Of a DNA stretch of 35,512 nucleotides, positions 10,999 through 17,151 are shown one piece after another (within the stretch, counting starts at the first letter, position 1; each line of letters begins with the position of its first letter). The stretch lies in contig JAPYOW010000016.1 of assembly GCA_029937975.1 (NCBI GenBank), positions 1-35,512 on the forward strand. Reading direction: 5' to 3'. This DNA is from Methylococcaceae bacterium (GTDB taxonomy: Bacteria > Pseudomonadota > Gammaproteobacteria > Methylococcales > Methylomonadaceae). The translations under genes were made by a program, and so were the position numbers. The notes under the pieces are model-generated. The model was given only the letters and a program-made list of their open reading frames with translations, was not told the DNA's origin and searched no databases.

Positions 10999-12390
10999 TT
11001 ATGCATTCAAGGATTTTAACACGGCTTGCATACTTTCATTGGCATCACCAAATAACATACGCGTATTTTCGTGGATAAATAAGGGATTGCCAACACCGGC
11101 ATAACCCGTTGCCATACTCCGTTTTAACACAATAGTCGTGGTGCTTTTCCAGCACTCCAATACCGGCATACCGGCAATAGGGCTATTCGGGTCATCTAAT
11201 GCGGAAGGGTTCACGATGTCATTAGCCCCGATGACGATAGTCACATCAGTCTGGGGGAAATCCGGGTTAATTTCATCCATTTCAAACACAATATCATAGG
11301 GAACTTTGGCTTCTGCCAGTAGTACATTCATATGCCCCGGCATGCGGCCTGCAACAGGATGAATGCCGAAACGTACATTTTTGCCTTTAGCCCGTAGCAG
11401 TTTAGTGATTTCATTAACCGTATGCTGGGCTTGTGCGACGGCCATGCCATAACCCGGGATAATCACAATATTGTTGGCGGCATTTATTATCTGCACGGTT
11501 TCATCATTTTCAATAGGGGCGACATCACCTTCAACAGTGGCAGCTTCTCCGCTAGCTGAGCCAAAGCCACCGGCAATCACACTAAGAAAATGGCGATTCA
11601 TTGCCTTGCACATAATGTAACTTAAAATCGCCCCGCTACTACCGACTAAAGCGCCGGTGACGATTAATAAATCATTGTTCAGCATAAAGCCGGTAGCCGC
11701 GGCGGCCCACCCGGAATAACTATTGAGCATGGAAACCACGACGGGCATATCTGCACCACCAATAGCCATAACCATATGAACGCCAAAAGTCAGGGCCAGT
11801 AAAGTCATCAGTATTAAGGCAAAAGTACCGCCTCCTGTTGCTACTCCGTCCAAGAACACCCCAGCCAGCCAGAATGTAGCGACAAACAGGGATAAATTAA
11901 GCCAGTGACGGCCTGGTAATAAAACAGGTTTTCCATCAATTTTCCCGCACAGTTTGCCAAAGGCAATAACAGAACCGGAAAAGGTTACGGCACCAATAAA
12001 AACCCCAATATAAATTTCAACTTCATGAATGGTATGCTCTATACCCACCAAGCTATTGGAACTGTCCATGAAGTTGGCATAACCGACCAGAACGGCCGCC
12101 ATACCAACTAAACTATGCATTAAAGCAACCAGTTCCGGCATTTGCGTCATTTCAACTTTTAATGCGGCTTTAGTGCCTATAAAGCCGCCAATAGCCAAGG
12201 CGATGATCAGCACGACATAAGAATCAACAGCATCACTGAATAAAGTGGCAAGAATGGCAATTGACATGCCCGCCATCCCCAAATAATTACCGCGACGGGC
12301 TGTTTCCGGATGACTTAATCCGCTTAAACTCAGAATAAAAAGTATGGAAGCGATTACATACGACATTATGACTAAACCTTGAGACATCAT
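10999..12390 (-). CDS. pntB: NAD(P) transhydrogenase subunit beta
   Basis: Inner-membrane subunit of the proton-translocating transhydrogenase, which uses the proton gradient to drive NADH + NADP+ to NAD+ + NADPH. The N-terminal part consists of hydrophobic helices beginning [20 protein letters not shown] and includes the conserved [23 protein letters not shown] region. The C-terminal soluble NADP-binding domain (dIII) shows [33 protein letters not shown] and [10 protein letters not shown]. The length of 463 equals that of E. coli PntB. AGGAAA stands seven bases before the ATG at 12390; the next ATG immediately after is equally possible. It lies nine bases after pntA, in one operon. Confidence 0.96.
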
Positions 12391-12399
12391 TAGTATTTC

Positions 12400-13962
12400 C
12401 TATTTTCTGAACATTTCAAGCATGCGGCGGGTCACTAAAAACCCCCCTGCAATATTAATGGCAGCAATCAAAATGGCTAATCCTGAAAGCAGTGTAATGA
12501 AGAATCCAGGTGCTGATATTTGCACCACAGCACCGATAATGATAATGCCGCTGATCGCATTGGTCACACTCATCAACGGAGTGTGGAGGGATGCGGAGAC
12601 ATTCCAGATGACTTGATAACCAATAAAACAGGCCAGTACAAAGACCGTAAAATGCGACATAAATGATGCCGGTGCAATAGAGCCTAAAGCAAATAAAGCT
12701 ATACCTATGGCAGCTAATAAAATGAGTTGTTTGGTCGCGTCGGAAATTAAGGCCGGTTTTTCTTCGACCTCTATATTAATCGGTGGGGCTGCGTTATTAA
12801 GCTTGGGGGTTGCCGATAATTTGGGGGCTGGCGGTGGCCAAGTGATTTTTCCATCCTTGATGACAGTCGTGCCGCGAATAACTTCATCTTGCATATTCAC
12901 ATCAAGAATGCCATTTTTTTCAGGCGTTAATTCAGTCAGCAGGTGCTTAAGGTTAGTGGCATAAAGCTGACTGGATTGTGCGGCCAGTCTGCTGGGTAAA
13001 TCGGTATATCCAATAAGGGTGACGCCATGTTTGACCACGACTTTGTCTTTTTCGGTCAGGGCACAGTTTCCGCCTTGTTCAGCGGCAAGATCGACAATCA
13101 CGCTGCCTGGCTTCATGCTTTCTACCATACCCTGGGTGATCAGTTCCGGTGCCGGTCTTCCGGGTATCAGGGCGGTGGTGATAATGATATCCACTTCCAT
13201 GGCTTGTCTGGCAAACAAGGCCATTTCTGCTTCAATGAATTCTTTGGACATGGTTTTGGCATAACCGCCTTCACCGGAGCCATCTTCTTCGAATTCAAGC
13301 ATCAGGAATTCGGCATCCATACTTTCTATTTGTTCTTTGACTTCGGGGCGAGTATCAAAAGACCTGACAATAGCTCCCATGCTTTTAGCTGCACCAATGG
13401 CGGCTAATCCGGCAACACCGGCACCAATGACCAATACTTTGGCCGGGGGCACTTTGCCCGCAGCGGTAATTTGTCCGGTAAAAAACCGGCCAAAATGTTG
13501 AGCGGCTTCCACCACTGCGCGATAACCTGCGATATTGGCCATCGAGCTGAGGGCGTCCAGTTTTTGTGATCTGGATATGCGGGGGACGCTATCCATAGCA
13601 AATACAGTGGCTTTTCTGGCGGCGAGTTGATCCATCAACGTGGCATTCTGGGCAGGCCAGATAAAACTGATTAAATGCCCACCTTGCGATAACAGCTGAG
13701 TTTCATCAATAGCCAGTTCTGGATGTATTTCAGGAGGCCGTATTTTGAGTATAATATCCGCATTTTTCCATAAGGTTTTAGCGGTTTTTCTGATTTTACA
13801 GCCCGCTTCTTTATAGGCTTCATCAGAGTGATTGGCAGCAAGTCCTGCACCACTTTCAATATTTACTTCAAAGCCCAGTTTAATGAGCTGTTCGGCAACT
13901 TCTGGCGTGGTCGCCACGCGTTTTTCACCAGGATGAATTTCTTTAGGCACACCGATTTTCAT
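12400..13962 (-). CDS. pntA: NAD(P) transhydrogenase subunit alpha
   Basis: Carries the NAD(H)-binding domain (dI) and the first transmembrane helices of the proton-pumping transhydrogenase. The protein begins [20 protein letters not shown], has the Rossmann motif [20 protein letters not shown] near 180-200, and ends with about four hydrophobic helices from residue 405 on. At 520 residues it is the fused E. coli-like form rather than split pntAA/pntAB. A Pro-rich linker (WPPPAPKL) joins soluble and membrane parts. A GGGGGA ribosome site precedes the ATG. A promoter-like pair lies at 14014-14042. In a methylotroph this enzyme would help supply NADPH, since much formaldehyde-derived reductant can be NADH. 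Confidence 0.96.
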
Positions 13963-14397: not shown

Positions 14398-15330
14398 ATG
14401 TTTTTAGCTAAAGATTTTATAGAAACTGCTGAAGGTCTGGTTTTTGCAGTGGTAGACAATGGCACGGAGCAAGGAAAAGCCCTTTGTTTTCTTCGTTATA
14501 TGCAGAAGGATCAGCAATGGAAAAAAGTAGATACTGCGGTAGCTAACCAGCTTTTATCCGAGCAATATCCGCAATATTTATACTTTTCAGCGAGTAAAGA
14601 AGCCTATTTACATGCTGTTTCTGCCGAACAAATAATGACACATTATCAGCCCCGGCATAGACTTAAACAGTTGTTGAATAGTCAGCCTGTGGATGATGTA
14701 GAAGTTGATTTGCTTATACTTTGTCGTTTGTTTGCAGCGCAGGGAATCAATCTTGAAGAGATAGGTGTGACCGGATCCATTTTAATATCTGTGCAACAGA
14801 AAAGTTCTGATATTGACCTGGTTTTTTATTGCAGAGAGGCTTTTCATCTGGCCAGACAGGTAACTCGCCTCTTGATTCAGCAGGGGGAGTGTGCAGAGCT
14901 CAGTCATCATGATTGGGAAGCCTCTTATGATCGAAGGGGTTGTGATTTAACGTTGGATGAGTACTTATGGCATGAACAACGTAAATATAATAAGGTGCTG
15001 ATCAATCAGCGTAAAGTCGATTTGAGTTTTGTCAGTGATAGCCCTCAAGAGACAGGCGTGACAAAGTATAAGAAATTGCAAGCAGTTACTCTTAAGGTCA
15101 GGGTCACTGATGATTCTTTGGCATTTGATTATCCGTCAAGTTATGCCATTCATCATCCGCAGATTTCTTTTATTATCTGTTATACCGCCACTTATACCGG
15201 TCAGGCAAAAACTGGGGAGTGGATCGAGGTGTCCGGTGTTTTAGAGCAGGCCAGTGATGGCATTCAGCGGATAGTGGTTGGCTCCAGTCGTGAAGCACGC
15301 GGGGAATATATCAAAGTGGTTCATGAATAG
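14398..15330 (+). CDS. Predicted nucleotidyltransferase (polymerase-beta superfamily, archaeal-like architecture)
   Basis: A 310-residue soluble protein. Residues 105-145 hold a minimal nucleotidyltransferase core: G126-S127 followed by S137-D138-I-D140-L-V-F, with the third acidic residue probably D208 in INQRKVDLSFV. All three metal-binding carboxylates therefore appear intact. An N-terminal domain (about 1-90, DFIETAEGLVFAVVD then LRYM) resembles, from memory, the leader domain of predicted nucleotidyltransferases in archaea. The last 80 residues are beta-rich and may be an OB fold. The substrate is unknown. Its stop overlaps the start of the HAD gene by eight bases, so the two are coupled, and mptG follows. 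The ATG has GGAAAG about eight bases upstream. A role in H4MPT synthesis or nucleic-acid repair is inference from neighbours and fold only. Confidence 0.75.
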   Translation: MFLAKDFIETAEGLVFAVVDNGTEQGKALCFLRYMQKDQQWKKVDTAVANQLLSEQYPQYLYFSASKEAYLHAVSAEQIMTHYQPRHRLKQLLNSQPVDDVEVDLLILCRLFAAQGINLEEIGVTGSILISVQQKSSDIDLVFYCREAFHLARQVTRLLIQQGECAELSHHDWEASYDRRGCDLTLDEYLWHEQRKYNKVLINQRKVDLSFVSDSPQETGVTKYKKLQAVTLKVRVTDDSLAFDYPSSYAIHHPQISFIICYTATYTGQAKTGEWIEVSGVLEQASDGIQRIVVGSSREARGEYIKVVHE

Positions 15331-16012
15331 AAAAGATCAGTACCCACAATTTTCAGCGGTTATTTTTGATCTGGACGGTCTGGTATTAGACACAGAATCC
15401 ACTTATTTTCTGGCCTGGAAAGAAGCGGGATCGGTCATGGGTTGTGAGTTCTCAGATGATTTCTGTTATTCCCTTTCCGGACTGCAATTTCAAGATATTG
15501 AGCAGCGACTATTCAAACATGGCGGCGCTGATTTTGATTTAAACCGGTTTTATCAGTTAAGCGGAGAATTCTGGCGACAAATTGTTGCTCAACAGGGTAT
15601 TCCAGTGAAAAAAGGTTTTTTTAACTTACTTGAGCAATTAAACCGCCAGCAAGTCCCTTTTTGTTTGGCTACCAATAGCCGTCAAATCAATGCGCTAGAA
15701 TGTCTTGAGTTGGCCGGGCTAAGTCAGGTTTTTTCAACTATCATCAGTCGAGATCAGGTGAGTCAGGGTAAACCCGCCCCCGATATTTTTTTAGCGACTG
15801 CGCAAGCATTGTTAACACCTATTGCTCAGTGTCTAGTGCTTGAGGATTCAGCGATAGGAATTCAAGCGGCTGTCGATGCTGGCGCTATTTCTGTCTTGGT
15901 TCCTTCCATACAGCCTGTTCATACTGGCGCTGCTTATATGGCGGATTATATCTATACGGACCTGGATCAGGTCGCTGAAATTATTAAATACTGTCGCCCC
16001 CCTGCTGTATAA
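15323..16012 (+). CDS. HAD-superfamily hydrolase, beta-phosphoglucomutase/phosphoglycolate phosphatase-like
   Basis: A 229-residue cytoplasmic phosphatase-type protein. All four HAD motifs are visible: FDLDGLVLDTES with nucleophile D16 and acid D18, the Thr/Ser motif CLATNS, the Lys in QGKPAPDIF, and the acidic LVLEDSAIGIQAA. A helical cap (about 25-90) between motifs I and II makes it a subclass I member. The substrate cannot be assigned. The ATG at 15323 overlaps the preceding stop as ATGAATAG, which argues for translational coupling with the nucleotidyltransferase. Starts further upstream inside that gene would add residues that do not belong to the HAD fold. Its position before mptG makes a phosphate-removal step in cofactor synthesis conceivable, but this is inference. 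Confidence 0.85.
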   Translation: MNRKDQYPQFSAVIFDLDGLVLDTESTYFLAWKEAGSVMGCEFSDDFCYSLSGLQFQDIEQRLFKHGGADFDLNRFYQLSGEFWRQIVAQQGIPVKKGFFNLLEQLNRQQVPFCLATNSRQINALECLELAGLSQVFSTIISRDQVSQGKPAPDIFLATAQALLTPIAQCLVLEDSAIGIQAAVDAGAISVLVPSIQPVHTGAAYMADYIYTDLDQVAEIIKYCRPPAV

Positions 16013-16194
16013 TTCCTGTCATGTTTTTCACCAGCATTAGAATGGCTGTGGCTGATCAAGCACAGTTCATATCGGTAGTCTGGGGAGAGTGGATAACGCC
16101 GTTCAGTGTTTTTATGTTGCTGTTTGTTGCTATTTGTTCTGCCAGATCTACCTTCTGAGCCATTCAAGGTGCTACATTTCAATAAATAATTGTA

Positions 16195-17151
16195 GTGAAT
16201 AAAAAAGTTTCCGTTATTGCTCCCGCTAGATTACACATGGGCTTTATAGATATGAGTAGCTCTCTGGGACGTGAATTTGGCAGTATTGGTGTTGCCTTAG
16301 ATGAGATAGCCACGCGACTGTCTGTCAGTTATGCCAAGCAATTTGTCGTGACCGGGCCGTCATCGCAAAGAGCTGAAAAATGGGTCCATATTTTATGTCA
16401 AATTTTGCAGGTTTCAGATCAATTACAGATAGAGATCGAAACGGCCATTCCTGAACATGTGGGGCTGGGGTCAGGGACACAAATGGCATTAGCGATAGGT
16501 TCTGCGTTAAATGCATTTTATGATTTGGACCTAACAATTCGTGAAATTGCTGAACTAACAGATCGTGGTATGCGTTCGGGTATTGGTATTGGTGTTTTTG
16601 AGCAAGGGGGGTTGGTTGTTGATGGGGGCAGAGGTGCCTTGACCAAGACGCCACCGGTTATTTCCCATATGGATATTCCGGCCGATTGGCGATTTATTCT
16701 GGTGTTTGATGAAACAGATCAAGGCCTGCATGGTGAGCAGGAAATCAAAGCTTTTAAGGCCTTGCCCGCTTATCCCAGTGAAGAAGCAGCCAGGCTTTGT
16801 TATTTGCTGTTAATGCAAGGATTGCCCGCAGTGGCAGAACAGCATATACACTTGTTTGGTGATGTGATTACACAGATTCAACGATCTGTAGGTGAACATT
16901 TTGCCTCAGTACAAGGCGGTGTTTTCAGCAGTAGTGAAGTGGCAGAAGTAATGCAGTGGTTGGAGCAGAACGGCGCTGTGGCCATAGGTCAGACTTCGTG
17001 GGGGCCTACCGGTTTTTGTGTGGTTGATAATGTGCAGCAAGCGGAAAGTCTGGTAAGCAAGATGCAGCAAAAATTTTCACATTTTGAGCGCCTTAGTTTT
17101 GTCACTGCCAGCGCAAGGAATAGTGGCGGAAGCATCGTTATTACTGTTTAA
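16195..17151 (+). CDS. mptG: Beta-ribofuranosylaminobenzene 5'-phosphate synthase
   Basis: Joins p-aminobenzoate (or 4-hydroxybenzoate in some archaea) to phosphoribosyl pyrophosphate with loss of CO2 and pyrophosphate, the first committed step to tetrahydromethanopterin. The 318-residue protein has a GHMP-kinase-like fold: APARLHMGFIDM (9-20), PEHVGLGSGTQ (86-96), SGIGIGVFEQGGLVVDGGRG, and a C-terminal SWGPTGFCVVD. The start is GTG: the RLH motif lies only 12 residues in, so later starts would remove it, but no Shine-Dalgarno sequence is visible. It follows the HAD gene by 182 bases, with a TATAAT over the HAD stop that could serve as a separate promoter. In bacteria this gene marks H4MPT-linked formaldehyde oxidation, hence the methylotroph assignment. 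Confidence 0.92.
   Translation: MNKKVSVIAPARLHMGFIDMSSSLGREFGSIGVALDEIATRLSVSYAKQFVVTGPSSQRAEKWVHILCQILQVSDQLQIEIETAIPEHVGLGSGTQMALAIGSALNAFYDLDLTIREIAELTDRGMRSGIGIGVFEQGGLVVDGGRGALTKTPPVISHMDIPADWRFILVFDETDQGLHGEQEIKAFKALPAYPSEEAARLCYLLLMQGLPAVAEQHIHLFGDVITQIQRSVGEHFASVQGGVFSSSEVAEVMQWLEQNGAVAIGQTSWGPTGFCVVDNVQQAESLVSKMQQKFSHFERLSFVTASARNSGGSIVITV

Follow-up and report, generated by a model that had tools for sequence, protein, structure and literature searches.

Three genes lie in close succession on the forward strand of the window, that is, of the whole stretch of 35,512 nucleotides analysed here. The first (14398-15330, ATG start) encodes a pol-beta-type nucleotidyltransferase (NTase) of 310 amino acids; the second (15323-16012, ATG at 15323) a HAD hydrolase of 229 amino acids from the beta-phosphoglucomutase/sugar-phosphatase branch; and the third (16195-17151, GTG start) is mptG, of the beta-RFAP synthase family. 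The end of the NTase gene and the start of the HAD gene share eight bases on the same strand (15323-15330), and among relatives one again finds either this overlap or a fusion of the two genes; a gap of 182 bases separates the HAD gene from mptG. An earlier note on this DNA had described precisely this arrangement, and its coordinates and single orientation are right. Downstream, mptG is followed by ligA, while the mch-CitG-fae genes of the same genome are found on a separate contig (C93, locus L074). Upstream of the NTase, on the opposite strand, transhydrogenase-like pntA and pntB genes are present (window positions 10999-13962), and they also occur near the NTase in five relatives (L036, L037, L038, L042, and L043). 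The genome (2.2 Mb, 97.8% complete) carries Mch, a CitG-like protein, hexulose-phosphate synthase and PQQ alcohol dehydrogenase, and for this reason it is taken to be that of a methylotroph. Most likely this is a gammaproteobacterial methanotroph of the order Methylococcales, in part because one of the three named NTase matches came from a Methylococcaceae genome.

Judged together with its divergent relatives, the NTase clearly belongs to the pol-beta superfamily. It shares with the superfamily the GS motif, the D-x-D and the distal Asp, all located in a central pol-beta domain (residues about 95-217, GS...SDID plus K206-x-D208), and differs from it in two additional beta-rich stretches without a clear match, one N-terminal (residues about 1-95) and one C-terminal (residues about 218-310). 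The GS..DxD core with its distal Asp (D138, D140, D208), which the earlier note considered intact, proved to be identical in all members aligned (G126-S127, D138, D140, and D208 in 20 of 20); in a second alignment, D208 is retained in the 11 non-Streptomyces rows and replaced in the four Streptomyces ones. The best Pfam match of the window protein is NTP_transf_2 (E 0.0022, 18.8 bits, below the 21-bit cut-off), no NCBIfam match was obtained up to E 1, and the protein scores under every curated cut-off. The superfamily assignment is made firmer by its divergent relatives, since 14 of 15 NTase members have a match to NTP_transf_2 with E no higher than 0.1, the best value being 2.3e-6. The MdcG family of phosphoribosyl-dephospho-CoA transferases (PF10620) was rejected as evidence: the window NTase reaches 13.6 bits against a cut-off of 26.5, only one of the 15 members matches it at E up to 0.1, and sub-cut-off matches appear in six control genomes too.

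A second-look comparison, made with a structure model that was built from four sequences and has a pLDDT of 70, aligned residues 95-217 to chains of the pol-beta superfamily with Z scores of about 5-6 (maximum 6.1), the matched chains being pol-beta (DNA polymerase X), ANT(2'')-Ia and the archaeal CCA-adding enzyme. Foldseek gave no match to this model at E 0.001 or better, and a sequence search of the PDB gave none below E 0.2. The N-terminal part of the model bears a weak likeness to Sm-type barrels (Z up to 5.0), and the C-terminal part (pLDDT 63) was too poor for a structure search.

In the HAD protein, residues D16, D18, T117, K150, and E174-D175 are invariant in all 13 sequences aligned, and the protein thereby possesses the DxD, the Thr/Ser, the Lys and the acidic motif IV of a HAD phosphatase. 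With these intact catalytic residues and 129.5 bits against the PGMB-YQAB profile, it resembles the beta-phosphoglucomutase/sugar-phosphatase HADs, but it stays under the cut-off of that model (153.35) and is distinguished by its tie to the NTase and mptG. The mptG product scores over the cut-off of TIGR00144 (177.3 versus 113.5 bits) and under that of the stricter equivalog NF040726 (200.3 versus 328 bits).

Within the family of the window's genome, the NTase is found in 113 of 121 genomes (100 of the 104 of good quality) and in all 29 genera, and mptG in 116 of 121. The earlier note made its case depend on a link to mptG that other methylotrophs should conserve; this link is kept in 80 of the 113 NTase-bearing family genomes, which have mptG on the same strand at 733-1703 nt downstream, and it is more than chance. 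The other 33 genomes have mptG elsewhere on the same contig (10 genomes) or on a different contig (23 genomes), and the latter cases may partly be an assembly effect. The pairing of the NTase with the HAD is conserved too: of 45 distinct family genomes inspected (the 30 best NTase matches and 20 chosen regions, five of them shared), 40 have a HAD gene within 300 nt after the NTase; in one of the five misses (G010), the HAD gene is about 340-370 nt from the NTase. A count based on motifs located the HAD in 43 of 54 loci, with the eight-base overlap in 16 of these 43 (13 distinct genomes). Moreover, two genomes of different genera, G075 and G083, have no stop between the two genes, which results in single frames of 533 amino acids (L005:1495-3093) and 560 amino acids (L008:1483-3162), respectively; both sets of active-site residues are kept and the linkers differ. 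These natural fusions are good evidence that the NTase and HAD proteins work together. In G024, the HAD gene adjoins mptG and the NTase is far away; the HAD is therefore linked to mptG independently of the NTase. The overlap of NTase and HAD is also present in a genome from another family of the same order (G597). The fullest gene order among relatives is NTase-HAD-mptG-ATP-grasp-mch-MyfB-like-CitG-like-fae, and mptG and mch are found together in 12 of 20 regions from relatives.

Eight of the 121 family genomes are devoid of the NTase. Five of these also miss mptG, a joint absence that linkage in incomplete assemblies can explain. Of the remaining three, G064 has mptG 43 nt from a contig end, G116 has a divergent paralogue as its sole mptG-type gene, and G019 (98% complete) possesses mptG with neither an NTase nor, in the 620 nt before mptG, a HAD, which may be a real NTase absence.

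The wider distribution was assessed with Mch as the marker of H4MPT in a class sample of 293 Gammaproteobacteria and a phylum sample of 349 genomes, some genomes being common to both. In the class sample, Mch is present in 39 genomes and the NTase in eight, all of them Mch-positive, and none of the 254 Mch-negative genomes has the NTase (P 5e-8 when genomes are counted, 4e-7 when genera are counted, kinship ignored). In the phylum sample, Mch occurs in 15 genomes and the NTase in the window's own genome only, again with none among the 334 Mch-negative ones. The co-occurrence with mch that the earlier note had asked for is thus seen throughout the sampled Pseudomonadota, where the NTase appears only together with Mch, and the association of the NTase-HAD pair with the H4MPT/methylofuran system is well supported. 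The proposal of a step in the synthesis of H4MPT or a related cofactor gains from this association and loses in generality, as the NTase is missing from 31 of the 39 class-sample genomes with Mch and from 14 of the 15 in the phylum sample. A role as a core enzyme of bacterial H4MPT synthesis, with presence in only 8 of 39 Mch-positive genomes, is not supported; the same absences indicate a lineage-specific add-on. The CitG-like protein (PF01874), in comparison, accompanies Mch in 39 of 39. A gene named k5, whose occurrence in the Mch stretches (22 of the 39 genomes, but only three of the eight NTase carriers) suggested a possible substitute for the NTase, was rejected in that role, as it carries Mpt_N, the methylene-H4MPT dehydrogenase domain. 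No cluster of genes from the Mch stretches (clusters present in at least four genomes) was found in most NTase-negative genomes and in zero carriers, in a clustering where several stretches end at contig ends and ORF picking dropped overlapping genes.

Outside the window's family, the gene links are looser. The five NTase carriers from beyond its order have no close HAD (best E 1.3e-9), and relatives of the HAD with 34-39% identity (E 2e-28 to 5e-41), about as close as the HAD of G597, are present in three NTase-negative genomes (G581, G670, and G553), for which reason the HAD alone is not specific; neither the NTase nor mptG nor any further H4MPT gene of the reference set occurs within about 1.5 kb of these relatives. 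In other families, the NTase is mostly away from H4MPT genes, with neighbours such as 6-phosphogluconate dehydrogenase (L069), a SurA-like chaperone (L068), and a methyladenine glycosylase (L073), and in UBA662 it lies beside SHMT. A scan of genome contigs with the NTase, which finds close relatives only, returned three gammaproteobacterial loci, belonging to a Methylococcaceae genome, Ca. Thiodiazotropha endolucinida and a Ctena symbiont. The last two have a DHPS-like gene, DUF447 and mfnB followed directly by the NTase. The H4MPT pathway is described as conserved in sequenced Ctena symbionts and Ca. T. endolucinida in the portion of PMC6712303 used here.

The only remote homologues found are encoded by 20 Streptomyces plasmid records. 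They can be aligned with the window NTase over about 80-94% of the protein, but differ from it in their low identity (23-26%), in the replacement of D208 in the four aligned, and in their gene context. In the four records opened, a phosphotransferase gene adjoins; three of them have SAM methyltransferases, and three a histidine phosphatase. Their tables, which are incomplete and rich in hypothetical proteins, name no H4MPT gene. The earlier note had counted homologues widespread in bacteria lacking H4MPT against its proposal; none were seen in the sampled Pseudomonadota, but the plasmid proteins are distant homologues from outside that sample. In a tree, the 15 NTases of this group fall into a single clade, well separated from the four Streptomyces sequences, with most inner forks unresolved. 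Viral contigs yielded no relative of the NTase; among phages, one search found nothing and another gave weak partial matches with E no better than 0.4, most of them to entries labelled as ssDNA-binding proteins.

The genes around the NTase-HAD pair in the family (mptG, mch, MyfB-like, CitG-like, and fae) are those of the archaeal-like H4MPT/methylofuran island, but no such NTase or HAD figures in the parts of the island papers considered (PMC8141765, PMC5020050). In the main text of the former, "nucleotid" occurs once (for ATP-grasp nucleotide binding) and "phosphatase" is absent. The word "nucleotidyltransferase" is likewise absent from the passages of the Methylococcus genome paper covered here (PMC517821), those of PMC12997859 hold nothing on point for such an NTase, and PMC1852104, as far as its accessible part goes, concerns a CCA-adding enzyme. 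Among the open-access papers listed, judged by title and start of abstract, none paired such an NTase with the H4MPT pathway.

With moderate confidence, we propose that the NTase and the HAD are a functional pair that works alongside the H4MPT/methylofuran system for carrying C1 units in one group of gammaproteobacterial methylotrophs. The proposal draws on co-occurrence, gene order, overlap, fusion and intact active-site residues, all of which are observed; from them we infer a small-molecule cofactor precursor as the substrate, as well as the chemistry. The pairing of a nucleotidyltransferase with a phosphatase beside mptG suggests the handling of a phosphorylated cofactor precursor. The NTase would most likely catalyze a nucleotidyl (or phosphoribosyl) transfer to or from this precursor with release of pyrophosphate, and the HAD would dephosphorylate that precursor, either ahead of the NTase or following it. 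Since most of the sampled pathway-bearing bacteria lack the NTase, the step would be accessory tailoring and not a core reaction. To our knowledge, no enzyme has been assigned to several of the steps that follow MptG in building the H4MPT side chain, and we know of no full structure published for the H4MPT of gammaproteobacterial methanotrophs. A conserved and sometimes fused enzyme pair tied to mptG offers two concrete candidate genes for this side-chain work. Within the functional-pair proposal, the likeliest step is one that tailors the H4MPT side chain at its ribose-phosphate end, an assignment that is tentative and that we ourselves hold to be unlikely; a side-chain addition limited to some lineages would fit the lack of the NTase in most Mch-positive genomes.

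A more detailed scheme can be drawn around the CitG-like protein, which may act as the second ribosyltransferase in the synthesis of H4MPT-type pterins. Among 14 control genomes it was found in the same four archaea as MptG, plus E. coli, and this shared occurrence naturally suggests it as a candidate for transferring the second ribosyl group; one of these archaea is S. acidocaldarius, in which Mch was not detected. In this scheme, the CitG-like protein would add a second ribose from ATP, leaving a 5-triphosphate, and the NTase would pass this phosphoribosyl group on to another moiety, with pyrophosphate being lost. Phosphoribosyl transfer with pyrophosphate loss is the chemistry of MdcG/CitX. 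The HAD would take off the phosphate left on the MptG-derived intermediate, and the H4MPT of these methanotrophs would, like that of archaea, carry a phosphodiester. M. extorquens makes dephospho-H4MPT without the phosphate and hydroxyglutarate, according to the sections of the study by Hemmann et al. (PMC8141765) relied on here. That the NTase and HAD finish in this way a side chain that other bacteria leave bare is a very doubtful suggestion.

The best surviving of the other explanations, although an unlikely one, is that the NTase acts on a protein or RNA of C1 metabolism, to regulate or modify it, and that the presence of the NTase tracks methylotrophy and hence H4MPT. GlnD and GlnE are pol-beta-type enzymes that modify proteins. 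The extra beta-rich stretches at both ends of the NTase speak for such a role, the weakly Sm-like N-terminal part would fit an RNA target, and in some genomes 6-phosphogluconate dehydrogenase or SHMT adjoins the NTase or G6PD is near it. In the same direction points hexulose-phosphate synthase, which scores over its cut-off in five of the 39 Mch-positive genomes, all five with the NTase (P 1e-4); three NTase carriers, however, have no such protein over the cut-off, and PQQ alcohol dehydrogenase does not separate carriers from non-carriers (7/8 versus 19/31, P 0.23). Nor does a role in protein or RNA modification by itself account for the partner phosphatase and the fusions.

A narrower form of the functional-pair proposal would have the two enzymes serve the biosynthesis of methylofuran, the formyl carrier, and not that of H4MPT. 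The position of the NTase directly after mfnB in both Ca. Thiodiazotropha-type loci agrees with this, as do the methylofuran-type genes (MyfB-like RimK) of the fullest operon of the family. The partner in the window's family, however, is mptG, an H4MPT gene, and in G024 the HAD stays with mptG without the NTase; a service to methylofuran seems quite improbable. Least probable of all, and only a slim chance, is that an NTase acting on small molecules and a sugar phosphatase, both with unrelated functions, became fixed beside mptG in an ancestral methanotroph as passengers: the broad family of the HAD, with relatives in NTase-negative genomes, and the looser gene link outside the window's family would allow it, but the NTase-HAD fusions, the separate link of the NTase to mfnB in another lineage, and its occurrence only with Mch in the samples argue against it.

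Finally, a second, divergent MptG-like protein was noticed, with 24-25% identity to the MptG of the window and a score over the TIGR00144 cut-off (L176:1809-2798, L177:3196-4236, and L175:979-1977). In these three loci, no further gene of the H4MPT pathway could be recognised among its neighbours. Its small operon also holds an unknown protein of about 240-250 amino acids; L176 and L177 have a Ham1-like/P-loop kinase fusion next to the gene, and L176 additionally a D12-class adenine DNA methyltransferase. The operon may represent a locus for modification or a mobile one.
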